Shown: positions 40,675 through 55,346 of the stretch, piece by piece
How positions within the stretch are numbered: position 1 is the stretch's first letter
Layout of the letters: each line of letters opens with the position of its first letter
NCBI RefSeq assembly: GCF_900107035.1
Contig: NZ_FNOJ01000018.1
Location: 1 to 62,203, forward strand
Source: Alicyclobacillus hesperidum
Lineage (GTDB): Bacteria; Bacillota; Bacilli; Alicyclobacillales; Alicyclobacillaceae
Direction: 5' to 3'
Length of the DNA stretch: 62,203 bases
Position numbers and translations under genes: made by a program
Notes under the pieces: generated by a model
Seen by the model: only the letters and a program-made list of their open reading frames with translations
Told to the model about the DNA's origin: nothing
The model's database searches: none

Positions 40675-40700
40675 TATCCACCACGAACTTGTGGTGGATA
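40675..40700. repeat. Perfect hairpin in the gene-free stretch 40422-40806
   Basis: TATCCACCAC and GTGGTGGATA form a 10-bp stem around a GAACTT loop. The surrounding 385 bp has no convincing gene. It lies between the divergently oriented recombinase cluster and the DUF3800 gene, so an operator or terminator role is possible. Confidence 0.5.
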
Positions 40701-40806
40701 CATAGTGAGAGTAAGTATAGTAGTGATGCCATAATTTGTTGCTACTCACCGAAATAGAAGATTTTCTATGAGAACGATCGTGAGAAGCAACGAGAGGAGT
40801 TCGTTT

Positions 40807-41616
40807 GTGGAATATCTCATCTACTGCGACGAATCAGAAAAGAACGGGGATCTTTTCACGAATTTTTACGGAGGAGCACTTGTACGATCGGTGGACTACC
40901 ATGAAGTTGTCGATGCGCTTGAACAGTACAAGACCGACAATCATCTGACGAGTGAAATGAAGTGGACCAAGGTAACGGCGCAGTACGTCGATAAATACAA
41001 GGGCCTTATGGATGTATTCTTTGATTTGGTGCAGGCTGACAAAATAAAGATGCGTGTCATGTTTCAGCAAAAAGAACGATCAGAGCCACGGCTGCGGAAC
41101 TTAACCAGGGAACAACGTGACGATTCCTATTTCCTGTTGTATTACCAATTTTTCAAGCATGCATTTGGTCTGGCGTATTCCAACCCTTCACGGGACCCGG
41201 TTTACTTGAAGATTTTCTTTGACCAAATACCTGACACTCGTGAGAAAGCCCAACGTTTTAAGGACTATATCTATAGATTGCAGTTTCAGCGGACTTTCTT
41301 GGAGTCAAATTTGAAAATTCGAACGGAAGACATAATCGAAGCGACCTCACATGATCATGTAATCCTACAATGTGCTGACATTGTAACAGGTGCAATGTGG
41401 TTCAGATTAAACAAATTACACCTTGTCAAACCGGAAGGGTCCCGATTTAGAGCAAAACGGACTAAAGCCAAAAGTGACTTGTACGATCACATCAATCGCA
41501 GACTTCGTGAAATACGTCCACACTTCAACATTGGGGTAACAACGGGAACAAATAGTTATGCCGACCGTTGGGAACAACCATACCGACACTGGCTGTTCGT
41601 TCCTAACGAAACCTGA
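40807..41616 (+). CDS. DUF3800 domain protein
   Basis: A 269-residue protein with the DUF3800 pattern: an N-terminal strand ending in acidic YCDESE, a middle segment with VYLKIFFDQ, and a C-terminal LQCADIVTGAMWF. The family is thought to adopt an RNase H-like fold with acidic metal ligands and is frequent in mobile elements and defence-rich islands; activity is unproven. The GTG at 40807 follows GAGAGGAG; the frame is open upstream. Confidence 0.8.
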   Translation: MEYLIYCDESEKNGDLFTNFYGGALVRSVDYHEVVDALEQYKTDNHLTSEMKWTKVTAQYVDKYKGLMDVFFDLVQADKIKMRVMFQQKERSEPRLRNLTREQRDDSYFLLYYQFFKHAFGLAYSNPSRDPVYLKIFFDQIPDTREKAQRFKDYIYRLQFQRTFLESNLKIRTEDIIEATSHDHVILQCADIVTGAMWFRLNKLHLVKPEGSRFRAKRTKAKSDLYDHINRRLREIRPHFNIGVTTGTNSYADRWEQPYRHWLFVPNET

Positions 41617-41852
41617 TTGGGCGGTTTTCTGTATTGCAAATTCAAAAAATGTTGTTTACGATGTATGCAAGAAGATATGGCTCTGTCGATCCGAAGGCTT
41701 GCGTTCCTACGTGGGCTCCTTAGTAGGTGAGATGGGGCCATTCGTCATTTCCGGAGTGACTCTCGTTCATAAGACGGGAGTGCGTTGAAAGTATTCAATC
41801 ATCAAAGCGACCGGGATGCATCAGTTTTTTCACTGTGATCGAGGTGACGAAA

Positions 41853-42227
41853 ATGGCGGACAAGAGGATCGAGATCGTACCAAAGGGCGAGAGCGGATGG
41901 TTTGTGATCAAGGGCATCACCCCCCCTCCGGCGACGAATGGCATCGAGGTGTTTTACGGTCAAAAGAAAGAAATAATCTCCGTAGAGGCTCCGGAGCTAT
42001 GGACCATTCGTGCACACCTGAATGATGGCTGTGTATACGACTATGATGTGACGAATCTAGCAAAGGCCGGTGGGCCATGGCGTGCGTTGCGAGCTGATCC
42101 TGATGCCTATTTTTCTTGTATAGAGGCTCAGCCCAAATGGATAATCTGGCGGGTGTCGGATGATGAACAGCAGTGCCCACGTGTGCCCCTCGAGGTGATT
42201 TTACGTGACGGTCAGAGAGTTGAGTGA
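41853..42227 (+). CDS. Hypothetical protein (124 aa)
   Basis: Starts MADKRIEIVPKGESGWFVIK after GAGGTG. The composition is that of a soluble, beta-rich protein with Trp residues spread along its length; two Cys are present (C89 and C109 regions). It probably forms a pair with the short gene that follows 11 nt later. No family recognised. Confidence 0.6.
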   Translation: MADKRIEIVPKGESGWFVIKGITPPPATNGIEVFYGQKKEIISVEAPELWTIRAHLNDGCVYDYDVTNLAKAGGPWRALRADPDAYFSCIEAQPKWIIWRVSDDEQQCPRVPLEVILRDGQRVE

Positions 42228-42238
42228 GGTGAAAGCAT

Positions 42239-42427
42239 GTGTGGAAGTGGTTCCGGCGGAGGAGAGAAAATCGACGCCCGGCCGGTGCTGACGAACACGC
42301 AGCCCAGACCCTGCTACCACCGGCTCGCAAAGTTGTTGTGGGCGGAGAGCTGTGGTTCGTGCGAGACCTTCCTTTGGATTTCCGGTACAATCATAAGGGG
42401 AAAAGTTGTTTTTCCGTACAGAATTAG
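42239..42427 (+). CDS. Hypothetical small basic protein (62 aa)
   Basis: GTG start with GAGGTGAAAG upstream, encoding MWKWFRRRRENRRPAGADEH and ending SCFSVQN. The N-terminus is strongly basic and aromatic. An overlapping ATG two bases earlier opens another frame (85 residues), so which frame is used is uncertain. A strong terminator begins at its end. Confidence 0.4.
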   Translation: MWKWFRRRRENRRPAGADEHAAQTLLPPARKVVVGGELWFVRDLPLDFRYNHKGKSCFSVQN

Positions 42428-42468
42428 CCACCAGATCTGCTATAACCAGGGTTGGCTAATTCTTTTTT
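42421..42468 (+). terminator. Strong rho-independent terminator
   Basis: GAATTAGCCA and TGGCTAATTC form a perfect 10-bp stem, followed directly by six T. It closes the DUF3800-side transcription unit and separates it from the iteron-like region. Confidence 0.85.
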
Positions 42469-42507
42469 ATGCACCTTCAAAGGTATCGTCGTAGGGCTCA
42501 GCGTCAT

Positions 42508-42724
42508 TTGAACCACGAGGTTGTTGATTGAACTACGAGGTTATTTCTTTTGCTCACGTGGTCTCCGTTCCTTTGGTTACGTGGTTTTGTTCTTTCAGTT
42601 ACGTGGTGTTTTGCCTTCACCACCGTATTTCAAAGTGAATTTTCAAAAATTCTCTCTCATTTGATCAAAAATCTTTCGAAAAACGTTCTTTCAGTTACGT
42701 GGTTCCTTAGACTACGAGGCTTTT
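42508..42724 (+). repeat. Seven iteron-like direct repeats
   Basis: Short repeats with the core (A/T)ACG(A/T)GGT: TTGAACCACGAGGTT (42508), TTGAACTACGAGGTT (42528), TGCTCACGTGGTC (42551), TTGGTTACGTGGTT (42573), TTCAGTTACGTGGTG (42594), TTCAGTTACGTGGTT (42690), TTAGACTACGAGGCT (42708). They occupy the gene-free interval 42469-42852 next to the replicon-like genes and resemble initiator-binding iterons. The alternative is a set of regulator sites. Confidence 0.6.
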
Positions 42725-42852
42725 GCAACAATGTGCAGTGAAGGTTTGCTTGATTGGTGGGCTGATTGTAGCGCTTTCCGCAAACAAAGACTTGTTTTAT
42801 CCCATCAACCCTTGGCACTATGTCTCCATCTTGATCATAGGAGGTGGTCATC

Positions 42853-43218
42853 ATGGAGATGCAGAACCAAACTACAATTGGCACAGAGGAGTTAATCACG
42901 TGTCAACGCTGTCGGACTGACAAACCACGGAGCGCCTATCGTCAAGTTGCTAACCCGACGATTTGTCTGGAGTGCTATGCGGCAAAGCGGCGGGAGGCAC
43001 GACATGCCCAGGTGTCTGAAATCATCGAGGAGACAGAGGGGGTGGCGAAACAGCGTGTTGGTGCATATCTGTCCCCTTTGGCGTATGCCACACTAAGGGC
43101 GATGTCGCTAAAGTACAAGAGTGACAGCGATGTGATCGAGCAATTGCTGTTAAAGGCCTACGGCACCATGACTCCAGATGAAAAAGCGGTAGTAGCGTAT
43201 GTGCGGAAGCCGATGTAG
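42853..43218 (+). CDS. Zinc-ribbon protein (121 aa)
   Basis: An N-terminal treble-clef-like zinc ribbon (CQRCRTDKPRSAYR...ICLECYAAKRREAR) precedes a helical C-terminal part (YLSPLAYATLRAMSLKYKS, SDVIEQLLLKAYG) reminiscent of a ribbon-helix-helix or plasmid accessory DNA-binding protein. AGGAGGTGG precedes the ATG at 42853. Sitting directly after the iteron-like repeats, it is a candidate to bind them. Confidence 0.6.
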   Translation: MEMQNQTTIGTEELITCQRCRTDKPRSAYRQVANPTICLECYAAKRREARHAQVSEIIEETEGVAKQRVGAYLSPLAYATLRAMSLKYKSDSDVIEQLLLKAYGTMTPDEKAVVAYVRKPM

Positions 43219-43238
43219 AGGCCCCGGTAGGCCTCACA

Positions 43239-43306
43239 ACCCTCATCATCCGGCGATGAGGGTCCTATACATGCCCCTTCAGGACGCATCCGCCCCTTGC
43301 GGGGCG
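43239..43306. terminator. Two hairpins between convergent genes
   Basis: ACCCTCATC/GATGAGGGT (9-bp stem, 43239-43263) and CGCCCC/GGGGCG (43291-43306) lie between the zinc-ribbon gene and the tyrosine recombinase gene. No T-runs follow either. Confidence 0.45.
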
Positions 43307-43324
43307 TAGGATCATCCAGTCCAC

Positions 43325-44320
43325 CTAGCTCCTGACCTTGTGAAGCGGTGAACCAACGGTGTACGTGTCGAGAATTTGGTCACGATTATGTCCGATAGCT
43401 TGTGAGGTGGCTCTCCTCGCATCTCGGATGTTATCGTACTTCTCTACGTTTTCCACCAGTGTATTCTGCGTGTAGTGATGTCGGATCCCGTGGGCCGTCA
43501 GATTTGCTCTCTTTTCCCCTTTGCCTCGATCTTTGTCCTGAAAGGCATCTCGGTATCGGTACAGCCAGTTTTGGATGCTCTTGGATACGCTTTTCATGGT
43601 TTCTCTCTTGCGATGGTCCACCACAATATAGCCGTTTAGTACTCCATGGGCTGATGCCACTTTGAGCAAGCCTTCAAGAACCTGACGGGCTTCTGGAGTA
43701 AGGGGGATATCTCTCGGACGACCATGCTTTTCTTGGCCCCTCCTGACATGGAAAACCCCATCACGAAGAGCTTCCTTGACTTGTTCGACAGTTGTTCTGA
43801 CGAAGCCGCCGATGCGAAAACCGAGGTGTTGGTCGACCTTGAGAAACTGTTCAACTTTCCACCAGCTCGCCTTTTGGACCGCCAGATTGAGGGCTCGCTC
43901 GAGTTCTGCTGGGGACCATGCCCGTTCCACGGCTTCGGTCTGTCGATTTTCCATTTGTTCTCCTTTTTCCGCCAGGTACTGCCGGATGTCATCAATTTCC
44001 GGAACGTGGCGATGTCCCGGAAGTTGGCGATCAAGGTATCGGAGGGCATCTATCTCCTTATACATCGAGCTCGTTGAAAGGCCTCGTTCAACCATTCCAT
44101 CGGCATAACTGAATACGTGTTTCGCATCAAAGTTTTTCAGGCTCTGCAACCGATAGTCGTCCGCCAGGTGGGCGCAGAAACGCCGGAGGCACGCTTCGTA
44201 ACTCTCTCGTGTATTATGGCCGCCTTGGTTAGCGTGCCGAAACACACTCTCGAGTTGTTGCGAAAGAGACCGGTATATCCCTTCGTTTTGTACGGCATCA
44301 ACCAATCCTGGATTTTTCAT
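43325..44320 (-). CDS. Tyrosine recombinase / integrase
   Basis: A 331-residue recombinase: N-terminal SAM-like core-binding domain (about 20-105), catalytic domain with Arg169 (GFRIGGFVRTTVEQV), a beta-strand lysine region (VRRGQEKHGRPRDIPL), H277-x-x-R280-H281 (HGIRHHYTQN), His311 and nucleophile Tyr320. All catalytic residues are present. The ATG at 44320 has AAGGAGGTGAT upstream; a GTG inside this site is rejected. Because the serine recombinase explains the element ends, this enzyme may resolve multimers of a plasmid-like form or derive from an older element. Confidence 0.85.
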   Translation of the reverse strand: MKNPGLVDAVQNEGIYRSLSQQLESVFRHANQGGHNTRESYEACLRRFCAHLADDYRLQSLKNFDAKHVFSYADGMVERGLSTSSMYKEIDALRYLDRQLPGHRHVPEIDDIRQYLAEKGEQMENRQTEAVERAWSPAELERALNLAVQKASWWKVEQFLKVDQHLGFRIGGFVRTTVEQVKEALRDGVFHVRRGQEKHGRPRDIPLTPEARQVLEGLLKVASAHGVLNGYIVVDHRKRETMKSVSKSIQNWLYRYRDAFQDKDRGKGEKRANLTAHGIRHHYTQNTLVENVEKYDNIRDARRATSQAIGHNRDQILDTYTVGSPLHKVRS

Positions 44321-44487
44321 TTGTATCACCTCCTTGACCCAAAATATGTAAAACGAAAAAACCGGTCTATTCCTATCTTTTCATCTCTTTTCCACCCTTT
44401 TTCCCGGCCTTTTTTCCGTAGGTTACGTTTTTCATCTTTTCATTCCCTTTTCCTATAAAGGATCTCCCGATTTTGTTCCTTGTTGTT

Positions 44488-44592
44488 CCCCTACGTTTCC
44501 TCCTGCGATAGCTCGCTTCAATCGCTGCATGGTCGACGTAGAGCGTCGACCATTTGCTCTCTCGCTTGCCATAGCAGGAGGAAACGTAGGGG
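44488..44592. repeat. 105-bp nested palindrome (possible replication or transfer structure)
   Basis: The outer arms CCCCTACGTTTCCTCCTGC (44488-44506) and its exact complement (44574-44592) form a 19-bp perfect stem. At the centre ATGGTCGACG/CGTCGACCAT (44529-44538, 44544-44553) forms a 10-bp stem with a TAGAG loop. The stretches between are partly complementary. No transposase or clear target duplication flanks it. It lies in the gene-free kilobase 44321-45348, before the replication protein. Confidence 0.8.
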
Positions 44593-45192
44593 TGTGAAAA
44601 GGGTTTGAACCGGTTTCAAAAGGGTTGAAAACAAGTAAAGCAAAAGGTTTGAAAAAGGTGGTACATGGGTTGAGCAGATTACCTATGCGGACTGTCATCC
44701 GTGTTGTGCAGCCATGCCCATGGCCGCTGCAACTAGGCTTGTCGGGCTTCTCGCTCGGTTTTAGGTGAGCGATCTGACGCACCAGGCGCTTGGTCTATGA
44801 CCAGCCCTCCGTTATGGAGCTTTTGCGGCTTTGGGCACCGCCGGGGCTACAAGACCCGTTCGCATTTCTTGCAAGAGGCGTTTATTACCGAGGGGTTCCA
44901 TCTCTATAAAACGAGGGTTCAATCTCATTTCCAGCCTGTAGACGTGATTCACTCATATGGGTGTGCGATTCACCTTTTCATCTCTCCCTTCATCTCTCCT
45001 TTGTTCAACGGTTGCGATCTTATAAACGGTTGCTCTTCCAATGCAAGGCCACCTTCAAACATTTTTTCGGTATCGAGTGACACTTGCAATTTCCGATCAA
45101 GGCTCAGTAGGTTTTCCGTCAAGAAGTGGGGCATTGCTTATAACGCAAAATCCGCCCCGGTGCTTGGAACACCGAGACGGATATCATGCCCC

Positions 45193-45325
45193 CCAGTCAG
45201 GCGACGACTGGAGTGATTGCTGAAGTCACTATGCGCAAAGTTATAGTGACTTTGCAAGTGTTAAAAGCACCTCCCTGGAAATCATCCCGATTTCTCAAGT
45301 CGCCCGGCTGAGAAGTCGGTTTTTT
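45193..45325 (+). promoter_or_regulatory. Attenuator leader of the replication gene
   Basis: Three hairpins in a row: CCAGTC/GACTGG (45193-45211), AAGTCACTAT/ATAGTGACTT (10-bp, 45223-45252), and CCGA-TTTCTCA/TGAGAAGTCGG followed by six T (45287-45325). The last is an intrinsic terminator ending about 10 nt before the ribosome-binding site of the primase gene. Such a layout is typical of attenuation, often antisense-RNA-controlled, in plasmid copy-number control. The mechanism is inferred. Confidence 0.65.
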
Positions 45326-45348
45326 GTTTGACGAAAGGAGGGTGACGT

Positions 45349-47442
45349 ATGGCCAAGACGGTCGACAACCATCAAAAGCTACGAATGGTAGCGAATCGAA
45401 CAGCGCTTTGTGTTCGTTCCTCACAATCACTAAGCACACCAGGTCAAAATCCGTCGCTGGCTGAACAGTTGCGGCAGGAGATGGATGGAGCCAAACGTGC
45501 TGTGGATCACATCAAAAAACACCACGAGGGTACACAAGGCTGGATCGCATTTTTTCAAAAACTGGACTTCTACGACAGTCAATCTTGGAGTAACCAGATT
45601 TTTGTGCGTCTGACACCAGTGTACGAGCGGGTAATATCGTGTGCTGCGTACGAGCTCACAGAAACCGAACAAAATCGCATGGAAGAACTTTCAGAGGAAG
45701 AAAAGGTGCAATACTTGGCTGATTTACGGACTATCAAAGCCGAAAAACGCCTTGAGAAACTACGCAAGGATGGCGGCAGCAAGCTCCTCATTCGACCGGT
45801 AAAACGCAGCAGACAGTACACCTATCAGCTCAATGAAATAACGGAGGAACTGCTTCTTCAATGGGGGATGAGGGACCTTTACTTCGTCCAAAACCCGAGT
45901 TTTGTCGCAGGACGGCGGACGGAGAACACCGTGAAAGAGGTACGCTCGTTGTATGTGGATCTTGACATCTTGGAACTCACCAGCATGACCGTAGCGCAAG
46001 CCTGGACTAAGGTGCGAGAGTGCTTTGGTGTTATGGTTCCAACGCCTAACGTAGTGGCCTTCACCGGTGGCGGTATCCACCTGGTGTGGTGGATCAATCC
46101 CGTTAGTCACTACAAGGTGGATCTTTGGAAGAAAATTGAGGCTCGGCTTATCGAGATTTTCCAGCCGTATGGCGTCGATACTGGAGTCAGCGATGTTGTG
46201 CGTGTTCTGCGGCCAGACGGAAGCTTTAACAGCAAACGTGGGAAGACTACAGAAGTTCTGTATCTTCGGGCAGAGAGATACGATCTCCGCCAATTTGGCG
46301 AGCGGGTGATGCCCGACTGGATTCCATTTGAGGAATGGCTGTCAAAACACGAGAATCAGTCCAAGCTGTCGGAGGAGCAGGAAAAGCCGGCTCGGGCGCC
46401 GTCCAACGTCGTTCCTTTTACACAGCGTTCGTCGAAAGCTAGTAAAAGGAGAAAAGCTTCTACGGCAAAGAACGAATCCCAGCCTGGTCATGCTGAGGAA
46501 CCCAACAAAAATGTTGTTGTATCATTTGTTCCACAGGCAAAAAAACGGCTACAAGACCTCGAAACCCTGCGGGAAATGGGTGCCTTCGACGGAGATCGCC
46601 GTCGTAGGGCAGTTTTCCTGTACCGAGTCACTGCGCTGTGTGCCTATGAGTCCGAAAAGGCGCTTGAGATGACCCGTTCCTTTAACGAGCGTTTGAAGTC
46701 ACCCCTAGACGATTACGTCGTCGAATGTGAGACCCGCTATGCAGAGATAAAGCGGTACTGGTACTCCACGGAGAAAATCGTGGACTGGCTGGAAATTACG
46801 CCAAAGGAACAGTCCGGCTTGCAAGTTCTTCGTCTTGATTGTGTATCCAAGAGCACTCGTAAACAGAGCAGCATGACTCGTGAGGAGTATGTGGCCACTG
46901 CCCAAGAACGCCGCCGACGTATCGCAGAACTCAAGGCACAGGGCCTTAGTAATCGTCGCATAGCAGGCGTCTTGGACTGTTCAGAAGGCGAGATTCGGCG
47001 CTTGTTGAAGACGTCAGTGACAGCATTGAACAACACTGCTTCAGGTGTCAACGAAGAGGTGCGTAGGGTTGTATCTATATGTGCCGAGACGGAGGTGGTG
47101 TGGAGCTGCACGTGTGTGCGGTGCGAGCGTGTGCGGCATATTTTGAGGGAGGCTGCCCGTTGGTGGTCAAGCTCTCCTCTGCCTGATGACTACGTGGTAT
47201 TACCGATCGACGAGGGTGCTTACACTGTTGCTCAGGGAACTGAACCCTGTGATTCTGCATCAGTGTTCCTCGTGACGAGACTGTTGCCGCCGGATGCACC
47301 CGCTGTGTGCAAGAGGTACGTTGCAATAAAATTGTCGCTGGTTTCTCCACACGATTGGACGATCGAAGAGACCAGAGACTTGTACTTGTCGGTGATAGCC
47401 TATGTCGCTCAGGCGTCGAACGAAGAGGCTTCGGCAGGGTAA
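45349..47442 (+). CDS. AEP-type primase / replication protein with C-terminal HTH
   Basis: A 697-residue protein. Residues about 195-300 match archaeo-eukaryotic primase motifs: VDLDI (D204, D206), then TGGGIHLVWW (239-248) for the S/T-G-G-x-H-L-W motif, and SDVVRVLRPDGSFNSKRGK (281-299) with the acidic/arginine third motif. After a Lys/Ser-rich linker, the C-terminal part holds an HTH-like segment (ELKAQGLSNRRIAGVLDCSEGEIRRLL). No helicase Walker motif was seen. AAAGGAGGGTG precedes the ATG. Together with the leader and repeats it suggests autonomous replication of the excised element. Confidence 0.75.
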   Translation: MAKTVDNHQKLRMVANRTALCVRSSQSLSTPGQNPSLAEQLRQEMDGAKRAVDHIKKHHEGTQGWIAFFQKLDFYDSQSWSNQIFVRLTPVYERVISCAAYELTETEQNRMEELSEEEKVQYLADLRTIKAEKRLEKLRKDGGSKLLIRPVKRSRQYTYQLNEITEELLLQWGMRDLYFVQNPSFVAGRRTENTVKEVRSLYVDLDILELTSMTVAQAWTKVRECFGVMVPTPNVVAFTGGGIHLVWWINPVSHYKVDLWKKIEARLIEIFQPYGVDTGVSDVVRVLRPDGSFNSKRGKTTEVLYLRAERYDLRQFGERVMPDWIPFEEWLSKHENQSKLSEEQEKPARAPSNVVPFTQRSSKASKRRKASTAKNESQPGHAEEPNKNVVVSFVPQAKKRLQDLETLREMGAFDGDRRRRAVFLYRVTALCAYESEKALEMTRSFNERLKSPLDDYVVECETRYAEIKRYWYSTEKIVDWLEITPKEQSGLQVLRLDCVSKSTRKQSSMTREEYVATAQERRRRIAELKAQGLSNRRIAGVLDCSEGEIRRLLKTSVTALNNTASGVNEEVRRVVSICAETEVVWSCTCVRCERVRHILREAARWWSSSPLPDDYVVLPIDEGAYTVAQGTEPCDSASVFLVTRLLPPDAPAVCKRYVAIKLSLVSPHDWTIEETRDLYLSVIAYVAQASNEEASAG

Positions 47443-47511
47443 GGAGTTTTCTTTACAGCTGAACATCAACGAGAAAACGGGTGAAGGAATGGCGTTTTTT
47501 GTCCGGATTAG

Positions 47512-47538
47512 CTTGAAACGCGCGCAGCGCGTTTCAAG
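47512..47538. terminator. Perfect hairpin between convergent genes
   Basis: CTTGAAACGCGC and GCGCGTTTCAAG pair over 12 bp around a GCA loop, between the primase gene and the minus-strand gene at 47580. No T-run, but the symmetry suits bidirectional termination. Confidence 0.55.
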
Positions 47539-47579
47539 TACATAATCGCATTTGCAATTGTTCCAGCCTCCGTAGTTTA

Positions 47580-47978
47580 TCAATGTATGTATTGTAGAAT
47601 CACTTCGCTTGCTTTAAGCCGTATGCGATCATCATCGCTTTGTAATGCCCTTTCCAACACCCGCTGGGCTTTCTTACGTAATTCCATGTCACTGAGATCC
47701 GCCGCTTCAACATATACTCGATCAGCTTGATGACTATGCTTCTCTGCATGTTCAGCAATGAACTTTTCGATGACGTTGAAGGCGAACTTTTTGCGTCCAA
47801 TTGCCTGCACAAAACCCACAAGAACACTTCTTATTGGGTACTGTGTCATCCATGCCAGAAATTTGTCATTCTCGGCCACGCTCAATGGTCGACCCATGCC
47901 TTCTTCGAAAACCTCATGTACGATTCCCCACAGGTCATCCATGATTCGTCCCACCTTGTTTAGGAGATTTTCGTTCAT
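47580..47978 (-). CDS. Hypothetical helical protein linked to vsr
   Basis: About 132 residues, all predicted helical, ending RIRLKASEVILQYIH. The ATG at 47978 overlaps vsr by 44 nt; an alternative ATG at 47942 would overlap by only 8 nt. Tight coupling to vsr points to a role in the restriction cluster, but no family is recognised. Confidence 0.6.
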   Translation of the reverse strand: MNENLLNKVGRIMDDLWGIVHEVFEEGMGRPLSVAENDKFLAWMTQYPIRSVLVGFVQAIGRKKFAFNVIEKFIAEHAEKHSHQADRVYVEAADLSDMELRKKAQRVLERALQSDDDRIRLKASEVILQYIH

Positions 47979-48384
47979 GTTTGCGGATGAACTGTTCGAT
48001 TGTATCCACTGTCTGTTGAAGATCAGTCTTTACATCATGTTCCCAAACCCTAAGAATGCTCCATCCTTTTGATTCATAATAAGCATTCACCTCCTGGTCA
48101 CGGGCTTTGTTTCCATGAAGTTTCTGCGACCAGTATTCCATGTTCGTCGCCGGTGCGTTTCCGTGTTGCGGGCATGAGTGCCAAAAGCAGGAGTCGAGAA
48201 ACACAACCACTTTATATTTTTTCACAGCTATATCCGGTTTACCGGGCAAGTTGCGGACATTTCTTCGAAAACGCAATCCTCGACGCCACAGAGCCGAACA
48301 AACCCGATTTTCCATTATAGTGTTCTGCGAACGAATCGCCTGCATGTTTTTTCGTCTTATTTCCGGGGACAAGTTATCCGCCAT
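47935..48384 (-). CDS. vsr: Very-short-patch-repair endonuclease Vsr
   Basis: A 149-residue nicking endonuclease of T:G mismatches created by deamination of 5-methylcytosine. Landmarks: SPEIRRKNMQAIRSQNT, catalytic Asp51 in PGKPDIAV, and FLDSCFWHSCPQHG with zinc-binding Cys/His. The ATG at 48384 lies 11 nt after GGAGGG. Vsr normally accompanies a C5-cytosine methyltransferase; one lies in the same cluster at 50682-51791. Confidence 0.94.
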   Translation of the reverse strand: MADNLSPEIRRKNMQAIRSQNTIMENRVCSALWRRGLRFRRNVRNLPGKPDIAVKKYKVVVFLDSCFWHSCPQHGNAPATNMEYWSQKLHGNKARDQEVNAYYESKGWSILRVWEHDVKTDLQQTVDTIEQFIRKHERKSPKQGGTNHG

Positions 48385-48526
48385 GAAATTCACCACCCTC
48401 CGGATGAAAATAATCCACCAATTTGCTCAGCAAATCACCCCATGGCATGACATGCGGAAACAGAAAACAACATACGATAAGAATGCGATCGCAGTTCAAA
48501 AAAATCACGTTTTGGGGTGATAACCC

Positions 48527-49039
48527 TTGCAAAGCTCAGAAAAACCACAGAGTACCCCAACATCAGATGCGCTTAGAGGGCTCATCGACAAGATCATTGT
48601 ATATCGGTTTACAAGGAACGTGGACAGGGAACTGAAGGCAAGGAAGATTTCACACAGCGAATTGAGTGAAGCATGCGGGAGAGCTAGAAATTGGTTTAAC
48701 AATGCATTTAACGGGCTGGAAGACATGAGAGTATCAACGTTTCTCAAATTGTTCGCTGCGGTGTCCAAGCTCAGCGAGGCAAAAATGCAATTCCAATGGA
48801 ATCCTCCCGCCATAGAGGCATTGTTTGATGGAGATCTGTTCCGCTTAAGTGCGTTGGCGCTCGATCTTAGAACGGATGATATCGAAACATTGGCTGATCT
48901 CGATCCAACGCTTGTAGATTTTTTTGTCGGACTGAGAGTTTATGTTGAGGCTCTGAAAGGGGTACAAAAGAAGGCTACTGATGAAGAAATCCATGCGTTT
49001 GAGTACGTTCTTGAAACGTTACAGTCCAAGAGGAGATGA
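48527..49039 (+). CDS. HTH (XRE-like) protein of the restriction cluster
   Basis: A 170-residue protein with an N-terminal helix-turn-helix-like segment (VDRELKARKISHSELSEACGRARNWFNNAFNG) and a helical C-terminal part. The TTG start follows GGGGTGATAA. It ends 4 nt before the endonuclease start and is divergent from vsr, so a controller-like role in timing restriction is likely but unproven. Confidence 0.6.
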   Translation: MQSSEKPQSTPTSDALRGLIDKIIVYRFTRNVDRELKARKISHSELSEACGRARNWFNNAFNGLEDMRVSTFLKLFAAVSKLSEAKMQFQWNPPAIEALFDGDLFRLSALALDLRTDDIETLADLDPTLVDFFVGLRVYVEALKGVQKKATDEEIHAFEYVLETLQSKRR

Positions 49040-49043
49040 TGTT

Positions 49044-50648
49044 ATGGCTGATCGCAAAATTTGGTTTATCACCAGGCCTGAAAGAGACCCGAAATTCCAT
49101 CGGGATGCGCTTCTGGCACTCGCAGAGGCCACAGACGGGTTTCAAGTTAAGTGGTCAGGCAATAGGGCAGTGCACCAGAAATATGAAGAGGCGTTGAACG
49201 CCAGGGGAATCAAACGGGAACACATCAGCAATGACGGCTCGGGAGGGAGAACATGGGCGGCCATGCTGAAGACTTTCGCTTATGTGTATACAGACGACGA
49301 TGGCTATTTGCGTTTAACAAAAGTCGGACAAAAAGTCCTCGACAAGGAAAAGGTACACGACAATGTGACCAAACAGATTCTTACACTTCAGATTCCCAAT
49401 GCGTACTTCTTGGAGTCAGGGTTCCGACCGCCTTTTGAAAGCGGGTTTCGAATTAGACCTGCTCGGTTTCTTATCAAGTTGACGAACCAAGCTTGTTTGG
49501 ACTATTTCGTAACAAAGGAAGAAATCACATTTTTTGCGCTGACCGCCAAAACAGACAATGAATTATCTGTGGTCACTGACAAAATCCGTGCATTCAGAAA
49601 CGCATCTCCTGCTGAGAGAGAACTGATGAAGCAGTCTATTGCTGAAGAATATGACCACCGGGAACGATCCGACAGGGCAGCTCGGGATTATGAAGTTGCT
49701 CACGGTGACGTCGCACACACGTTCATGCTTATTTGCGAGTACACGGGCCTTGTTGAATACATCAGGGGAGAAGCCTTAAGGATCAATCCGTCCGACAGTA
49801 AACAGGTTTCTGATCTGATGGAGGTTTTTGACCAGCGGTATCCTTTCAACACACGGTATCTGATTTCTTTGCAACGGATGGCCGAGAACAACGGCCTTGA
49901 TGTCGACAGTTACAAAGCGAGTGCTTACGGCAATGTCAAGCCAGCAACGAATAGGGGGAAGACAGAGAACAAGGTTAGGGCGATGCTTGCGGAGTATCCC
50001 GATATAGGCGCACTTACACGTGATGAGATCAAGGCGATTTTGTTGAACGAGCTGCCCGAAAAGGATGCAGAGAAATATACCAATGAAGTCACCCAGGACG
50101 TTTCCCATGCATTGAATCAAGATTTTGTCGAGACGTATTTGCACGAACCCGATAACAGGGCATTTGAAGACAAGACCGGTGAGATCTTCAAAGCAATTGG
50201 CTTTGACGTAGAGATGCGTCCAAAACCAAATGCGGATGTTGAGACTGAAATAGAAATTCTACTAAAGTACGGTGATCGTGAATGCGGCATCATCGACGCT
50301 AAGAATTACAAGAACAAATTCGCCCTTTCGGCGAGCCTGGCATCCCACATGGCCAGTGAATACATTCCAAACTACGATGGATATGATGGCCGAAAAGTGA
50401 TGTTTTTCGGCTACGTTACAGCAGCGGACTGGAGTGGAGAACGGAATTTAACAAAGATCAGTCAACTGGCCGCCAGAACCATTCGAGGCAGGGAAATCAA
50501 AGGAATCATGCTTAGCGCAAGAGTCCTATTGGGGTTCTTGGACTACTGTATGGATAATAATTTGTCAAGGGAACAGCGAATTTCGAAGTTTCTCCGTGCA
50601 GTAAGGAACGAGGCGTATTCTACCTTGGGTGAATTTCTCCGGAATTAA
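49044..50648 (+). CDS. Type II restriction endonuclease, AlwI / N.BstNBI family
   Basis: A 534-residue protein. Its start MADRKIWFITRPERDPKF and the segment KTFAYVYTDDDGYLRLTKVGQKVL resemble the DNA-recognition part of N.BstNBI and AlwI (KTYGFVFVDEEGYLRITEAGK in N.BstNBI, from memory). The C-terminal third holds a PD-(D/E)xK-like nuclease: E at about 420 and GIIDAKNYK. AlwI-family enzymes cut outside asymmetric sites; the specificity here cannot be read. AAGAGGAGATG precedes the ATG. Convergent with the methyltransferase. Confidence 0.8.
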   Translation: MADRKIWFITRPERDPKFHRDALLALAEATDGFQVKWSGNRAVHQKYEEALNARGIKREHISNDGSGGRTWAAMLKTFAYVYTDDDGYLRLTKVGQKVLDKEKVHDNVTKQILTLQIPNAYFLESGFRPPFESGFRIRPARFLIKLTNQACLDYFVTKEEITFFALTAKTDNELSVVTDKIRAFRNASPAERELMKQSIAEEYDHRERSDRAARDYEVAHGDVAHTFMLICEYTGLVEYIRGEALRINPSDSKQVSDLMEVFDQRYPFNTRYLISLQRMAENNGLDVDSYKASAYGNVKPATNRGKTENKVRAMLAEYPDIGALTRDEIKAILLNELPEKDAEKYTNEVTQDVSHALNQDFVETYLHEPDNRAFEDKTGEIFKAIGFDVEMRPKPNADVETEIEILLKYGDRECGIIDAKNYKNKFALSASLASHMASEYIPNYDGYDGRKVMFFGYVTAADWSGERNLTKISQLAARTIRGREIKGIMLSARVLLGFLDYCMDNNLSREQRISKFLRAVRNEAYSTLGEFLRN

Positions 50649-50681
50649 CAGTGAGGACTCCCGGAAACGGGAGTCCATATC

Positions 50682-51791
50682 TTATAGCGACAGCACAATT
50701 TGTCTCTCCGGTACGAAGTCCTCCGTATTCCACGTGGCATCCGTATATTCGTACTCAACTCCAGCAAAGGTCTTCAAGATGGCTTCAATGATTACCTTCG
50801 CACCTTGAGGAGGAACTGCCATACCAACTTGCTGACGGACCTTCTCTTTTCCACCACAGAACACAAAATCGTCCGGGAAAGTCTGAAGTCTCGCCCGTTC
50901 TCGATTAGTAAGAGCTCTCGGCTCATCCCAGTGGTAAATATGCGTGCCGCCTCCGCCGCTACCAGTGACTGTGTACGCAGGGGCATCCGGCTCCAGCCTC
51001 TTGTATATTTGACTGAGCTTTGCTCCTTTAACATTGAGTCTCAGGTTCTCAGGAATGCCTTCATACCAAGCATTTTCTCCGGGAGGAATATGGTTAAGCA
51101 ATTCGATCACCTTGGCTGTATGCCGGGTGAATTCGTGGTTTGGCGCATCGTCAGCAATGGGAGGGTCCATCAATGCTTGACGTGCAGTACGATATGGTTT
51201 CGAAGTACCAGGTCCATGCGTTGGGGCGGGTACTTTGAACTCAAGGCCAAGATCATCCCGGATCCCGACGATAATAATTCGGTGTCGAGTTTGCGGTACA
51301 CCGTAATCTTGGAATTTGTAGAGATGGGGGGTGATTCTATATCCCGATTCAATCAAATCAACCAAGATTTGATTGAACGCTTGACCGTCGTTTGCGCTTT
51401 GGAGCCCAGACACATTTTCGGCAATAAACCACTTGGGTTGGAAGCGCCGCAACACTTTGACGCCATATGTATACAAAGGGCCGTAATCTCCATCCAATCC
51501 CTTATGTTCTCCGACAAGACTGTAGTCGTTGCAAGGAAACCCAAAAGTGAACGCATCGATCCCTTCAAGTTGTTCAATATCAAGTTCTCGTACGTCTCCC
51601 AAAATAACTGACTCTGGTCGGTCTGGGCAGATGTTCCGGATATATGTTTCACACGCAGATTCATCAATGTCATTGCTCCATTGATGTTCTACACGGTACT
51701 CGGTTCCATGCTTGTCCGTCACTCTGGCAAGTTTGGCAGCAAGTCCAAATCCCCCAGGTCCATTGAAGAATTCGCCCTTTTTGAAGATCAT
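50682..51791 (-). CDS. DNA (cytosine-5-)-methyltransferase
   Basis: A 369-residue C5 methyltransferase: motif I FFNGPGGFGLAAKLA, motif IV FGFPCNDYS with catalytic Cys87, motif VI AENVSGL, motif VIII QTRHRIIIVG and motif X QVGMAVPPQGAKV (MA replacing the usual N). The ATG at 51791 gives this start; the frame is open further upstream. It protects host sites against the neighbouring endonuclease, and its product explains the Vsr gene. It is convergent with the endonuclease gene, 33 bp apart. Confidence 0.93.
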   Translation of the reverse strand: MIFKKGEFFNGPGGFGLAAKLARVTDKHGTEYRVEHQWSNDIDESACETYIRNICPDRPESVILGDVRELDIEQLEGIDAFTFGFPCNDYSLVGEHKGLDGDYGPLYTYGVKVLRRFQPKWFIAENVSGLQSANDGQAFNQILVDLIESGYRITPHLYKFQDYGVPQTRHRIIIVGIRDDLGLEFKVPAPTHGPGTSKPYRTARQALMDPPIADDAPNHEFTRHTAKVIELLNHIPPGENAWYEGIPENLRLNVKGAKLSQIYKRLEPDAPAYTVTGSGGGGTHIYHWDEPRALTNRERARLQTFPDDFVFCGGKEKVRQQVGMAVPPQGAKVIIEAILKTFAGVEYEYTDATWNTEDFVPERQIVLSL

Positions 51792-51956
51792 GTCACACCA
51801 CTCCCAAACGTACGTTCCTTCTAAGTATAATGGACGTCGCAACATTTTGCAGCCCATAAATTGGAAGGCGATGGGGTGGGATGCGAAGAAGGTGAAAATC
51901 CCTCACTAGTCTGAGTATGACAAGGGGCTCAACCTGATGTGAAGAAGCCGCAATAG

Positions 51957-52175
51957 TCAATCTTCCATATATTCATCCCGGTATAAGACCAACCCTAGCC
52001 TACTGCATTCGGCTTCGATGTGTGTGATGAGTTCATCCGCTCGAATGTCATCATCCTTGAGAAAGGCAACGTCAGCCTGCTTGAGCAACATCGAGAGATC
52101 ATCGGGGAGATCTGACTTTTGCAGGCAATATATCCGGTCATCAATTGTATCGTGACGCCTCCTCACCTTTCTCAA
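51957..52175 (-). CDS. Hypothetical small acidic protein (72 aa)
   Basis: Ends ECSRLGLVLYRDEYMED; the middle is rich in Asp and Leu and predicted helical. The start is uncertain: a TTG at 52175 or a GTG three codons in, neither with ideal spacing. Lies between the methyltransferase and the conjugation operon, in opposite orientation to the latter. No family recognised. Confidence 0.5.
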   Translation of the reverse strand: MRKVRRRHDTIDDRIYCLQKSDLPDDLSMLLKQADVAFLKDDDIRADELITHIEAECSRLGLVLYRDEYMED

Positions 52176-52276
52176 TAATATTTGAAAACCTGATTTTTTT
52201 GCGAGATTTCGGGGCTGAAAGGAAGTAACTGTGCTAGAGTAATGTTATAAAATTCTGATTGGCCGGGGTGATAGTA

Positions 52277-52579
52277 ATGGCTAAGAGCGAGGAAACCATC
52301 AAAAGTGAGATCGACGCTCACATTCAGCAGTGCGGGGGTGCATATTCAAATTGGTATGTAGGAATTGCAGCCGATGCCCGAGACAGGTTGTTCTCTGATC
52401 ATACTGTCGACGAAAAAAAGGACGCCTGGATTTACAGAAATGCGGAGAATTCAACAGTGGCCCGACGAATTGAGAAATACTTCATTGAAACGTTGGGGAC
52501 AGATGGCGGTCCTGGAGGCGGAAGCGACCAAACCACCTATGTTTACGCATACAAAAAAAACGCTCATACAGAACCGTGA
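52277..52579 (+). CDS. GIY-YIG-like small protein
   Basis: A 100-residue protein. The segment YSNWYVGIAADARDRLF with His42, followed by an Arg/Glu helix (VARRIEKYFIE, Glu66) and a glycine-rich GTDGGPGGGSD, resembles the GIY-YIG nuclease layout (Y..YVGI..d..R...H then E), though the first GIY tyrosine is shifted. I recall similar orphan proteins but no assigned function. Ribosome-binding site GGGGTGAT precedes the ATG at 52277. It directly precedes the Ubl operon on the same strand, separated by a promoter. Confidence 0.6.
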   Translation: MAKSEETIKSEIDAHIQQCGGAYSNWYVGIAADARDRLFSDHTVDEKKDAWIYRNAENSTVARRIEKYFIETLGTDGGPGGGSDQTTYVYAYKKNAHTEP

Positions 52580-52599
52580 AAGAGCGAGTTGGCCTAGCG

Positions 52600-52628
52600 T
52601 TGTTGGATTGGTAGAATTCGGATATAAT
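52600..52628 (+). promoter_or_regulatory. Promoter of the Ubl conjugation operon
   Basis: TTGTTG (52600-52605) and a perfect TATAAT (52623-52628) are separated by 17 nt, about 45 bp upstream of the Ubl start. Confidence 0.6.
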
Positions 52629-52672
52629 AGCGGCAGAATATTTGAAAATCCAGATAAGCAGGGGGCGTCAAA

Positions 52673-52930
52673 ATGGCGGATCATGACCAGAGTCATCATG
52701 ACCACGATGGAAACATCTTCATAGACAAAAAGCGCTATCCAATTGAAAAGGATGCAATGACAGGTAGTGAACTTAAAAGCTTGGCAGGTATTCCTCAAGA
52801 CTACGAGTTGTGGCTTGAGGTACACAGCGGAGAGGACGACAAAATTGAGAACACCCAGAGTATCGAATTGAAGTCTGGAATGAAGTTTTTCTCTGTACCA
52901 CCCGTTATCAATCCTGGGAGCGGTCGGTAG
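52673..52930 (+). CDS. Ubiquitin-like modifier (Multi_ubiq-type beta-grasp protein)
   Basis: An 85-residue protein. After a His/Asp-rich N-terminus, one beta-grasp unit is visible: GNIFIDKKRYPIEKDAMTGSELKSLAGIP (two strands and a helix), then YELWLEVHSGEDDKIENTQ and IELKSGMKFFSV. The pattern fits the multiubiquitin family (Pfam Multi_ubiq), but with a single unit rather than two or more. The C-terminus is NPGSGR, short and Gly-ended apart from one Arg, so trimming by the JAB domain or another protease may be needed to expose Gly. First gene of the operon; E2-like follows after 3 nt. Confidence 0.75.
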   Translation: MADHDQSHHDHDGNIFIDKKRYPIEKDAMTGSELKSLAGIPQDYELWLEVHSGEDDKIENTQSIELKSGMKFFSVPPVINPGSGR

Positions 52931-52933
52931 TTT

Positions 52934-53302
52934 ATGCCTCTGCTAGAAGATGATGAGCAGTATTTGACGGAGAAGGGATGGCGTTTTGAGATTCATGAAG
53001 AGCCAGAGCGCACCCTGCTTGTGATAAAGGATTACCAATTGCCAAGCAAGTTCACCCTGGATATGACTGACGTCCTCATCATCATTCCGAGACTTTATCC
53101 CATGAATCCCCTTGATATGTTCTGGGTACGACCGGAAATTCGGTTGAAAGCATCAGGTGCTTATCCACAGGCAGCCGACTACTTCGAGAACTATCTCGGT
53201 GACCGTTGGCAACGATTTTCAAGACACTACCAGTGGCGGCCGAATATTGACAGTTTGGAAAGCCATCTACGGGTCATACAAAATTCTTTGGAACGGGCCT
53301 GA
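52934..53302 (+). CDS. E2-like ubiquitin-conjugating protein (Prok-E2_E type)
   Basis: A 122-residue protein. It has the E2 (UBC) core pattern: FTLDMTDVLIIIPRLYPMNPLDMFWVRP corresponds to the strand and P-x-x-Y/P-M-x-P region of E2s, and the tail shows W-x-x-F-S96-R97-H98-YQWRP-x-x-D-x-L-x-x-HL, the Prok-E2_E signature as I remember it. Unlike canonical E2s it contains no cysteine at all. Ser96 or the histidines are the only nucleophile candidates near the signature. Placed 3 nt after the Ubl gene. Confidence 0.75.
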   Translation: MPLLEDDEQYLTEKGWRFEIHEEPERTLLVIKDYQLPSKFTLDMTDVLIIIPRLYPMNPLDMFWVRPEIRLKASGAYPQAADYFENYLGDRWQRFSRHYQWRPNIDSLESHLRVIQNSLERA

Positions 53303-53342
53303 AATCACCGGCAGAAGTAGGTTGAGCCCTTTGCGATACTCA

Positions 53343-54737
53343 ATGACTTTTGTATCAGACGATTACGAAAAATTGACAGCCCACCTGTTTGAGGATTCCT
53401 CAGTGGAACAGGCGGCGTACTTGTTATGTGGAATTTCGCAAACCCAGTCAGAGATTCGGTTTCTAGTTCGGACCGTGGTCCTAGTTTCCCCCGATACATT
53501 GAAAGAACAGAGCGACAAGCATCTGTCTATCCCATCGTCCTCTTTTGTTCCTGTGTTGAAGCAGGCGGCTGACCGCCAAGAGTGTTTTTTCCTTGTGCAT
53601 TCTCATCCCCCAGGATTTGAGGATTTTTCATCGCAGGATGATCTCGAGGAACCAAAACTCTTTCGTACGGCTTACATTCGTGTTGGCTTCGGCATTCACG
53701 GTAGTTTAGTGTTTAGCGGGCGAGATACATTATCAGGACGAGTGTGGATCGACGATGGTGATGAATTGCGACCAATCCCACTCAATTTGATTCGTATCAT
53801 AGGTCGCAGATACGAGTTTTTGATTCCGGCAAATGGGCCAGCTCCGCAGACCGTAATGCCAAAGAGGTTTTTTGAACGGCAAATACGTGCGTTTGGTAAA
53901 GATCTACAGAGGTTGCTTGAGAACCTCCATATCGGAGTCGTTGGGTGTGGCGGTACTGGTTCCGCAGTCCTCGAGCAATTAGCACGTCTTGGCGTAGGTC
54001 AGATGACAATCGTCGACCCTGACAAGGTGGAAGACACAAACATAAGCCGGATTCATGGCAGTGGCCTATACGATAAAGGCCGTAGCAAGGTTCAAGTAAT
54101 GGAAGACATGATCAAGCAGATTGGGTTCGGGACGAGAGTTCATGTCATCGAGAAGAAAGTGATTTACGAGTCAGTCGCTCGTGACCTCCGTAACTGTGAC
54201 CTTATTTTTGGCTGTACTGATGACCAAGCCGGCCGGATGGTTCTAAATGAGCTATCCATTCATTACTATATCCCTCTCATCGATATGGGGGTTGTGATTG
54301 ACTCACATTTGGGCTACCTCCGTAGCGTGCTAGGCCGTGTCACGATAGTTCGACCCAAGGCGAATTGCCTACTTTGTAGACAATGGATCAGGATGGATTT
54401 GGTAGCTGCTGAACTAATGGCGGCGGAGTTGCGTGAGCAAAGAGTAAAGGAAGGATATGCGCCAGAACTTGAGGAGAAGGATCCAGCAGTCGTGAGCTTT
54501 ACCACGGCGGTCGCTACTCAAAGTGTTATGGAGATGCTACATCTTATCACTGGGTACATGGGAGACGAGCGTGATGTAAGAGACATTCTTTGGCGCCTGG
54601 ACTCGACAGCGTACAGCTTTCGTCCCGTCCCAAATTCAGAAGGATGCTCCTGTACCACTTATAAGAAAGTTGGACGGGGTGATCGAAGACAGTTTCTTGG
54701 AATGCTCTTCATGGCTGAACCGGAATGTGAGGTGTAG
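53343..54737 (+). CDS. JAB-E1 fusion: deubiquitinase-like plus ThiF-family activating enzyme
   Basis: About 464 residues. The N-terminal JAB domain (1-160) has a full JAMM set: Glu22, H86-S-H88 and S96-x-x-D99. The E1/ThiF domain (185-435) has nucleotide loop GCGGTG (201-206), VDPD (222-226), the ISRIHGSGLYDKG segment and GCTDD with Asp293. C342/C345 and C435/C437 look like a zinc site, and no other obvious catalytic cysteine lies in the crossover region. It should adenylate the Ubl and may process or remove it. The start is uncertain: ATG 53343 or TTG 53322. Confidence 0.85.
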   Translation: MTFVSDDYEKLTAHLFEDSSVEQAAYLLCGISQTQSEIRFLVRTVVLVSPDTLKEQSDKHLSIPSSSFVPVLKQAADRQECFFLVHSHPPGFEDFSSQDDLEEPKLFRTAYIRVGFGIHGSLVFSGRDTLSGRVWIDDGDELRPIPLNLIRIIGRRYEFLIPANGPAPQTVMPKRFFERQIRAFGKDLQRLLENLHIGVVGCGGTGSAVLEQLARLGVGQMTIVDPDKVEDTNISRIHGSGLYDKGRSKVQVMEDMIKQIGFGTRVHVIEKKVIYESVARDLRNCDLIFGCTDDQAGRMVLNELSIHYYIPLIDMGVVIDSHLGYLRSVLGRVTIVRPKANCLLCRQWIRMDLVAAELMAAELREQRVKEGYAPELEEKDPAVVSFTTAVATQSVMEMLHLITGYMGDERDVRDILWRLDSTAYSFRPVPNSEGCSCTTYKKVGRGDRRQFLGMLFMAEPECEV

Positions 54738-54743
54738 TAAAAC

Positions 54744-55130
54744 GTGTTTGGATGGGCGAAGCAACTATGGAAACTCTTTCGTGGTGAACGGGGAATCGAA
54801 ATATTTGGAAATATCATTGAAACGGACGAGCAACCGGATCTGATACCTGACGGGACGTTAGTTCTCGTGATGGGCGGTACAAGTCCCAAATGGCTAAAGT
54901 TCTCATGTCCATGCGGATGCGGTGCAATACACAGCCTGCCGTTGATGTCGAATCGGCGCCCCCATTGGCAAGTCACATACGAAAACAATGGAACTATATC
55001 GGTATATCCTTCCGTTGATGTAGCGGCGCCGGGGTGTGGAGCTCACTTTTGGATAAAGCGGAGCAAGGTAGTATGGGCAGAACTAAAGCCGAACCGTTCT
55101 ATAAGGAAGAAGAAGTCCGGTCTTCGGTGA
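54744..55130 (+). CDS. DUF6527 protein (Ubl-operon component)
   Basis: A 128-residue protein with CPCGCGAIHSLPL (Cys55, 57, 59) and PSVDVAAPGCGAHFWIKRSKVVWAEL (Cys98, His101). The pattern fits the DUF6527 family that accompanies bacterial Ubl/E2/JAB-E1 operons, which I recall being proposed as a protease. Family members I remember carry Ser in CxSHFW; here the residue is Ala100, so activity may be altered. GTG start 6 nt after the E1 stop, with GAGGTG upstream, so it belongs to the operon. Confidence 0.7.
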   Translation: MFGWAKQLWKLFRGERGIEIFGNIIETDEQPDLIPDGTLVLVMGGTSPKWLKFSCPCGCGAIHSLPLMSNRRPHWQVTYENNGTISVYPSVDVAAPGCGAHFWIKRSKVVWAELKPNRSIRKKKSGLR

Positions 55131-55212
55131 TTACGATCTAAACAGGTGGATGTTGCCCATATCGTGCCCATATGCTATCCGTGACGGCCCGTGACTAACA
55201 GTGAAATGCTAC

Positions 55213-55245
55213 CCCGGAAAACCCTGATTTCTCAGGGATTCCGGG
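55213..55245. terminator. Hairpin after the Ubl operon
   Basis: CCCGGAA-A-CCCTGA pairs with TCAGGG-A-TTCCGGG around a TTTC loop (13 pairs with one A/A mismatch). It lies about 80 bp past the DUF6527 gene and 75 bp before attR. No T-run. The remaining gene-free sequence 55131-55601 holds this hairpin, attR and a possible operator. Confidence 0.5.
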
Positions 55246-55320
55246 ATTGGATGAGACTATCTAAAACCACCCGTGACGTCTCCGACCGAATTCCTAAAGT
55301 ACATCCGTCACCTTTAGATT

Positions 55321-55346
55321 GGTACGGTGAACCGTACCACAAGTAA
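55321..55346 (+). repeat. attR: right attachment site with the original rlmH 3' end
   Basis: GGT GAA CCG TAC CAC AAG TAA encodes GEPYHK-stop, the normal RlmH C-terminus, with no gene in front of it. The site is centred on a perfect inverted repeat GGTACGGT GA ACCGTACC (55321-55338) whose central GA matches attL. This arm symmetry around a 2-nt core is typical of serine-recombinase sites. Confidence 0.8.

Follow-up and report, generated by a model that had tools for sequence, protein, structure and literature searches.

The analysis below concerns an operon in Alicyclobacillus hesperidum (assembly GCF_900107035.1, contig NZ_FNOJ01000018.1), within a stretch of 62,203 nucleotides hereafter called the window. 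At positions 52673-55130 of the plus strand lie four consecutive genes, encoding a ubiquitin-like protein (Ubl), an E2-like protein, a fusion of a JAB (JAMM) domain to a ThiF-type E1 domain, and a DUF6527 protein—that is, the gene set of a Bub-type operon, here carried by an integrated element resembling a staphylococcal cassette chromosome (SCC).

The four-gene operon

52673..52930, plus strand: BubA-like Ubl, a single beta-grasp domain, 85 amino acids (Multi_ubiq 8.9e-13, 48.7 bits against a cut-off of 24.5)
52934..53302, plus strand: BubB-like E2, 122 amino acids, without cysteine, Ser96 lying in QRFSRH (Prok-E2_E 1.6e-35; Citrobacter BubB 3.8e-15)
53343..54737, plus strand: BubCD-like fusion of JAMM and ThiF/E1 domains (ThiF 1.4e-37; Prok-JAB 1.6e-5; PDB 9ea4 3.9e-37)
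54744..55130, plus strand: DUF6527 protein, 128 amino acids (PF20137 9.3e-21)

All four frames are open, and each protein exceeds the curated cut-off of its Pfam family. The original prediction, made from the letters alone, had read the same four genes at these positions, and the profile searches that it proposed (Multi_ubiq, Prok-E2_E, Prok-JAB, ThiF, and DUF6527) all returned matches, those to the Ubl and E2 families included. The catalytic motifs that it reported in the fusion are likewise present, namely the JAMM signature HxH/SxxD (H86, H88, S96, and D99, with E22 upstream) and the adenylation loop GCGGTGS at residues 201-207. The best matches in the PDB are Citrobacter BubCD for the fusion and Citrobacter BubB for the E2, at the E-values listed above. 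The original prediction had placed the operon among relatives of Bil and of 'diverged Bub' operons; the kinship to Bub is borne out by the Citrobacter matches, and the description as a mere relative falls short, as the window operon is, by its sequence relationships, a Bub operon itself.

The genes are closely spaced, with 3 nt between Ubl and E2, 28 or 40 nt between E2 and fusion, and 6 nt between fusion and DUF6527, and from this spacing only we infer that they are transcriptionally linked. The two values for the middle gap reflect the choice of start codon: the open reading frame list opens the fusion at GTG 53157, overlapping the E2 gene, and a start at TTG 53331 or ATG 53343 appears likelier from the upstream sequence and from comparison with a Peptococcaceae homologue (locus L020). 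The 'consensus promoter' of the original prediction did not withstand a scan of both strands of 52150-55700, in which two sigma-70-like sites were found against a shuffled mean of 4.7, no better than chance; a perfect TATAAT at 52623-52628 is accompanied, at 17 bp spacing, by a -35 element (TTGTTG) that matches at three of six positions.

Features of the encoded proteins

The window Ubl ends in INPG|SGR, the residues SGR lying beyond Gly82. In an alignment whose rows were all cut at the terminal Gly, this residue lines up without gaps in 83 of 83 Ubls (the window's and 82 others, that of C. braakii included). As a stand-in for the solved Citrobacter Bub proteins we used a homologue on a C. braakii plasmid; placed on its fused Ubl-E2 protein (P0007), the solved BubA chains end in ...KDVNNG, and the BubB chain 9eae_C starts at the residue right after this NNG, while 9eav_D aligns from two residues earlier. 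From the Gly register together with the ends of the solved chains, Gly82 is therefore predicted to be the mature end and SGR a propeptide that the JAMM domain would trim. A mature Ubl ending in the terminal GSG was also considered and is less likely, given the register.

Across the 83 Ubls counted, 66 have a TEG-type end (one of them TTAG), 16 end in [NT]PG or NNG, and one (L061) shows no recognisable motif. Among the TEG-type Ubls, 31 stop exactly at the Gly, 26 are fused to an E2, and nine have a short tail; among the 16 [NT]PG/NNG Ubls, 13 have a tail, two (from Paenibacillus) are fused, and one (L054) stops at NNG. The tails of the 13 unfused [NT]PG Ubls are 1-5 residues long, the window's SGR being one of them.

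The window E2 (P0002) contains no cysteine. Since 29 of the 85 E2 domains found among homologous loci lack cysteine altogether (one of these, L087, being a partial match), no cysteine position can be conserved in this family, and a conserved E2 cysteine is thereby ruled out. What does recur is a Q-x-x-S-R-H motif, present at 85 of 85 E2 loci as QRWSRH (73), QRFSRH (7), or other variants (5), and its invariant serine, Ser96 in the window, is the likely acceptor of the Ubl. For Bub, an intermediate of the oxyester type, which involves no cysteine, has reportedly been described in published work.

In the fusion, the loose JAMM pattern HxH...SxxD is found at 87 of 87 loci, and the D104A substitution of the deposited BubCD falls on the JAMM aspartate, equivalent to D99 of the window, if the numbering of the C. 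braakii protein P0008 fits that chain. ThiF/MoeB-type E1s carry their cysteine in a stretch that corresponds to fusion residues 346-434; the window fusion has 10 cysteines in total and none between these positions. Its E1 domain has the cysteines CLLC...CSC, of which the pairs 342/345 and 435/437 have the look of a metal site, and C291 lies within an FGCTDD motif. The original prediction assigned the protein families correctly and overlooked three features: the absence of cysteine from the E2, its absence from fusion residues 346-434, and the C-terminal tail of the Ubl.

The DUF6527 protein of the window has a basic N-terminus and five marked residues (Cys55, Cys59, Ser90, Cys98, and His101). 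In 70 sequences compared, Ser90 and His101 are invariant, as are Pro56, Trp75, and Pro89, and the cysteines vary: Cys55 is present in 69, Cys59 in 60, and Cys98 in 61. Cys59 and Cys98 are absent jointly in nine of the 70 (eight of which retain Cys55, one having lost all three), and Cys59 is absent alone in one, which suggests that the two form a shared metal or disulfide site that is dispensable in some members. A pure zinc ribbon was accordingly rejected, and because Cys59/Cys98 are dispensable and Ser90/His101 constant, the protein probably does more than bind metal.

The N-termini of this family, with start codons chosen by rule, carry a positive net charge in 75 of 79 cases (mean +3.5) and are moderately amphipathic, with a mean z of 1.04 over shuffles that exceeds 1 in 39 of 79; for the starts of E1 and E2, taken as controls at the start of their profile matches, z averages 0.07 and -0.43, and the charge is negative on average. 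We treat the putative basic amphipathic N-terminus as a lead, not a result. A profile search of the PDB at E<=1 gave no relative of DUF6527, the match of one C. braakii member at 0.011 looking like chance, and no paper naming DUF6527 was found in a literature search outside whose coverage most subscription papers lie. At three of the loci the DUF6527 gene is inverted, so that it converges with the gene for JAB-E1 (7361-7747 in L021 and L022, Paenibacillus; 7337-7723 in L028, Acidovorax).

Distribution and the carrying element

In genome contigs, 271 stretches matched a pattern and 200 encode a relative; the best 80 of these 200, six plasmid loci, and the window make up the 87 loci compared here. 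An E2 match is present at 85 of them and a DUF6527 match at 85, the misses including loci cut by contig ends, and the order Ubl/E2/JAB-E1/DUF6527 recurs among homologues from several phyla. Among 72,556 plasmid records, 119 match the fusion at E<=1e-20, each at less than 60% identity. Carriage by phages was rejected: 56 pattern matches in viral contigs included no confirmed relative, and the matches in two Acinetobacter phage records, each to a ThiF-type gene, were limited to fusion residues 168-316. Near the window's host, Bub is rare. Prok-E2_E exceeds its cut-off in two of 398 genomes at the level of the phylum and in two of 398 at that of the class (both counts include the window's own genome), with a third genome of the class matching below the cut-off, and the host genome itself has one match each to Prok-E2_E and DUF6527.

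Among those relatives of the fusion that bear a name, the nearest belong to the Bacillota. In a tree of 84 fusion sequences, drawn with its root at the midpoint, the window is sister to Peptococcaceae BRH_c4a (support 100/98), followed by two Paenibacillus sequences (100/98), inside a 12-row branch supported at 100/99. Ten rows of this branch are labelled [NT]PG or NNG, an eleventh (L025) ends in NPG on reading, and the twelfth (L024) is cut by a contig end. Three acidobacterial [NT]PG rows (L060, L092, and L096) fall on the other side of the tree, so this type of end is not limited to a single clade. A 36-row tree places the C. braakii fusion and that of a genome of the window's own class (G357) in a lineage apart (100/99) and again recovers the 12-row set (99/92). 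The E1 phylogeny that the original prediction had proposed thus sets the window in a supported branch apart from the Citrobacter lineage, and no solved structure was found for any member of that branch.

Two other loci deserve mention. The operon of G357 (L003), which groups with the Citrobacter lineage, encodes an E1 without the CLLC-type cysteine pair. At positions 4369-6159 of a Chroococcidiopsis locus (L009), the JAB-E1 gene is shortened beside an IS4 transposase gene, leaving a broken Bub operon.

The window operon lies near the right end of an integrated element, whose main features are as follows.

38345..55340, strand not applicable: SCC-like integrated element of about 17.0 kb (empty site in the same-genus genome G402, locus L018)
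38345..38359, plus strand: left attachment core GGGGAACCGTATCAT, within the 3' end of rlmH (comparison with G402)
55326..55340, plus strand: right attachment core GGTGAACCGTACCAC; AAGTAA comes next, just as it does at the empty site (comparison with G402)
37853..38365, plus strand: rlmH, the host gene serving as insertion site (NCBIfam RlmH 3.7e-55, above cut-off)
38318..40009, minus strand: large serine recombinase, CcrB/CcrC-like (Resolvase, Recombinase, Zn_ribbon_recom)
48981..50648, plus strand: AlwI-type type II restriction endonuclease (RE_AlwI 9.6e-11; PADLOC REase_II 6.6e-250)
50682..51857, minus strand: C5-cytosine DNA methyltransferase (DNA_methylase 3.2e-72; PADLOC MTase_II 2.3e-117)
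52277..52579, plus strand: 100-amino-acid protein directly upstream of the operon (weakly GIY-YIG-like; E=0.069, under the cut-off)

The limits of the element were set by comparison with G402, in which the flanks are present and the insert is absent: its sequence matches window positions 25955-38359 (96.7%) and 55326-56896 (92.7%), and the two matches, meeting at 38359 and 55326, overlap by 15 bases in G402. The left attachment bases belong to the final codons of rlmH. At the empty site the sequence is TATCATAA, a motif conserved between the attachment sites of SCCmec and of enterococcal ECC according to PMC6222049, and the two window ends, TATCATCG and TACCACAA, each deviate from it at two positions. 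G+C content is 48.3% in the element and 52.3% and 51.9% in its flanks. The recombinase scores 1.9e-87 (294 bits) with the NCBIfam model CcrB and 2.6e-80 (270 bits) with CcrC, both far below the equivalog cut-off of 900. Taken together, insertion at the 3' end of rlmH, attachment repeats, and an empty site, beside a recombinase that resembles CcrB and CcrC, mark the element, on comparative sequence grounds, as an SCC-like cassette, its putative mobility being read from presence and absence between two genomes of one genus. The original prediction had placed the operon on a mobile element beside restriction-modification genes, and both points are supported, the endonuclease and methyltransferase lying on the same element; the kind of element, rlmH-inserted and Ccr-like, is added here.

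Between 38318 and 38365, the last 15 codons and the stop of the recombinase gene overlap the 3' end of rlmH on the opposite strand, so the C-terminus of the recombinase would be partly written by the insertion site. A search of 15 genomes of the genus gave recombinase matches at E<=1e-60 in two others (G398 and G409); that of G398 (L102) adjoins rlmH, and no rlmH was found within the 3.9 kb fetched for G409. The G398 locus suggests that rlmH has been used repeatedly as an insertion site in the genus. Other cargo comprises a Vsr-like gene, a tyrosine recombinase, a replication-protein-like gene (697 amino acids, 45349-47442; phrog_9432 8e-17 and a weak helix-turn-helix match), and a DUF3800 gene followed by a DUF3800-VIII RNA (40768-41741; 60.2 bits, gathering threshold 40.2). 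The 100-amino-acid protein was considered as a fifth subunit of the operon and rejected, as no relative was found at E<=1e-3 among the open reading frames of the 86 other loci. A literature search for cassette chromosomes, ubiquitin-like proteins, restriction-modification, and anti-phage activity jointly returned no paper, most subscription papers lying outside its coverage.

Proposed mechanism, rival explanations, and comparison with known systems

We consider it probable that the window encodes a Bub-type ubiquitin-like conjugation pathway, belonging to a branch for which no solved member was found and carried by an SCC-like cassette, that would operate as follows. The JAMM domain of the fusion would trim the Ubl precursor after Gly82, releasing SGR; the ThiF/E1 domain would adenylate Gly82; the Ubl would be handed as an ester to Ser96, or to another hydroxyl, of the cysteine-free E2, and from there be transferred onto target proteins; and the same JAMM domain would remove it again. 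DUF6527 would play an accessory part and may, by means of its basic N-terminus, anchor the reaction at a membrane or on nucleic acid. All of these chemical steps, as well as a purpose in phage defence or stress response, are inferred. A bolder version, which we regard as doubtful, would have a Bub lineage of cysteine-free chemistry whose Ubl starts out inactive, with 1-5 residues beyond [NT]PG, and is activated by no other enzyme than the JAMM domain of its own operon; DUF6527, with its invariant Ser90 and His101, would be a new enzyme or ligase factor, held at membrane or nucleic acid by a basic amphipathic N-terminus, and SCC-like cassettes would help the operon to spread.

Several observations weigh against the proposed pathway. 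Prok-JAB barely passes on the fusion, at 25.2 bits against a cut-off of 25; cutting every row of the Ubl alignment at the Gly favours alignment of the ends; and the ester chemistry supposed for the window operon draws on what is reportedly described for Bub and on sequence. Identity to the C. braakii fusion is only 27%, and the window E1 keeps the CLLC...CSC cysteines that the C. braakii protein lacks. A cysteine a few residues after the E1 FTT motif is present in many homologues and absent from others, the window's included. Its presence in many homologues and the 10 cysteines of the window fusion would speak for a canonical thioester mechanism through a fusion cysteine such as C285 or C291, which we nevertheless find very unlikely: the E2 has no cysteine, none lies at the ThiF/MoeB-type site (residues 346-434), C291 belongs to the FGCTDD motif, and 342/345 and 435/437 resemble metal ligands. 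That the operon is inert cargo decaying on the element would fit its rarity and mobility, as well as the truncated JAB-E1 gene beside a transposase gene in the homologous operon L009, and is more improbable still, given four open frames, intact JAMM and adenylation motifs, and tight spacing. Scarcely tenable is a ThiS/MoaD-like sulfur-carrier or cofactor operon that conjugates no protein; a ThiF-type domain is present (NCBIfam ThiF 1.4e-25), but its score of 89.9 bits compares with an equivalog cut-off of 275, an E2 family gene stands in the operon, the Ubl matches Multi_ubiq, and the closest PDB chains are Bub proteins.

As to what a Bub-type conjugation pathway would be for, two answers compete. 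Bil systems are described as tagging phage proteins, and the window operon may protect its host or its element in the same manner, an explanation that the original prediction had favoured and to which we give just short of an even chance. It shares a mobile element with type II restriction-modification genes, a neighbourhood that by itself proves nothing on function, and according to PMC12687455 such systems appear primarily phage-defensive. Many Bub operons adjoin regulators common to immune operons: according to PMC13373217, 219 of 544 are accompanied by CapW or by CapH and CapP, and 59 by CapK/CapS. The same paper states that phage protection by Bub has not been demonstrated. Of the six plasmid loci read first, five have genes for helix-turn-helix (HTH) and ImmA proteins upstream, as does a number of genome loci, but no such pair (CapH/CapP-like) was found in window positions 48001-58000. 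In the other answer, conjugation would alter host proteins under DNA damage or general stress, phage infection being one of several triggers. Regulators linked to Bub respond to DNA damage, and this option is raised by the authors of PMC13373217, but none of that kind was recognised in the neighbourhood of the operon here; we take the stress pathway as a substantial possibility somewhat below even. Defence and stress response thus come out about equally likely.

Bub pathways are a recent and little-studied relative of ubiquitination. Because it is compact, with a single Ubl and a separate E2, and comes from a branch without a solved member found, the window operon could serve as a convenient test of the generality of the serine ester, of gating by JAMM, and of the role of DUF6527; its location on an SCC-like cassette marks a possible route of spread.

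Among known systems, type II CBASS (cyclic oligonucleotide-based antiphage signalling system) combines an E1-E2 fusion (Cap2) with a CD-NTase. This identity was rejected: in the 25 of 33 PADLOC matches listed, the E1-E2 models extend over nothing but the E1 part of the fusion (P0005), the E2 has a gene of its own, and no CD-NTase was found among the 10 window proteins scanned. In Bil, Ubl, E2, E1, and JAB are encoded together, the E2 has a catalytic cysteine, and JAB and E1 are separate genes. The window also encodes these four activities as a set, but its JAB is fused to E1, its E2 (P0002) is free of cysteine, and DUF6527 is present, so it is not Bil; the match of PDB BilA to the window Ubl reaches E=0.28 only. 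Like SCC and ECC, the element is inserted in the 3' end of rlmH, has TATCATAA as its empty site, and encodes a Ccr-like serine recombinase; it differs in the single recombinase found, which scores below the CcrB and CcrC cut-offs, in its Bub cargo, and in a host that is likely other than those treated in PMC6222049.

Citrobacter Bub (PDB 9ea4, 9ea5, 9ea8, 9eae, and 9eav) is the closest solved system, and it agrees with the window in gene set and order, DUF6527 included, in the JAB-E1 fusion, in the register of the terminal Gly, and in an E2 motif with serine and no cysteine (QRWSRH, against QRFSRH in the window). Besides the differences in fusion identity and E1 cysteines weighed above, and its place on a separate branch, C. 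braakii has several Ubl domains fused to the E2 and ending in NNG, whereas the window Ubl is single, has its own gene, and bears the SGR tail; C. braakii also has two HTH-type genes upstream, and none alike was seen among the window neighbours scanned, CapK/CapS not having been searched by profile. Another close system is the operon of Peptococcaceae BRH_c4a (L020), which is followed, unlike the window's, by a tyrosine integrase gene, and which shares with the window 56% identity in the fusion, the sister position in the tree, the same gene order, and a single Ubl with a comparable TPG|RDG end.

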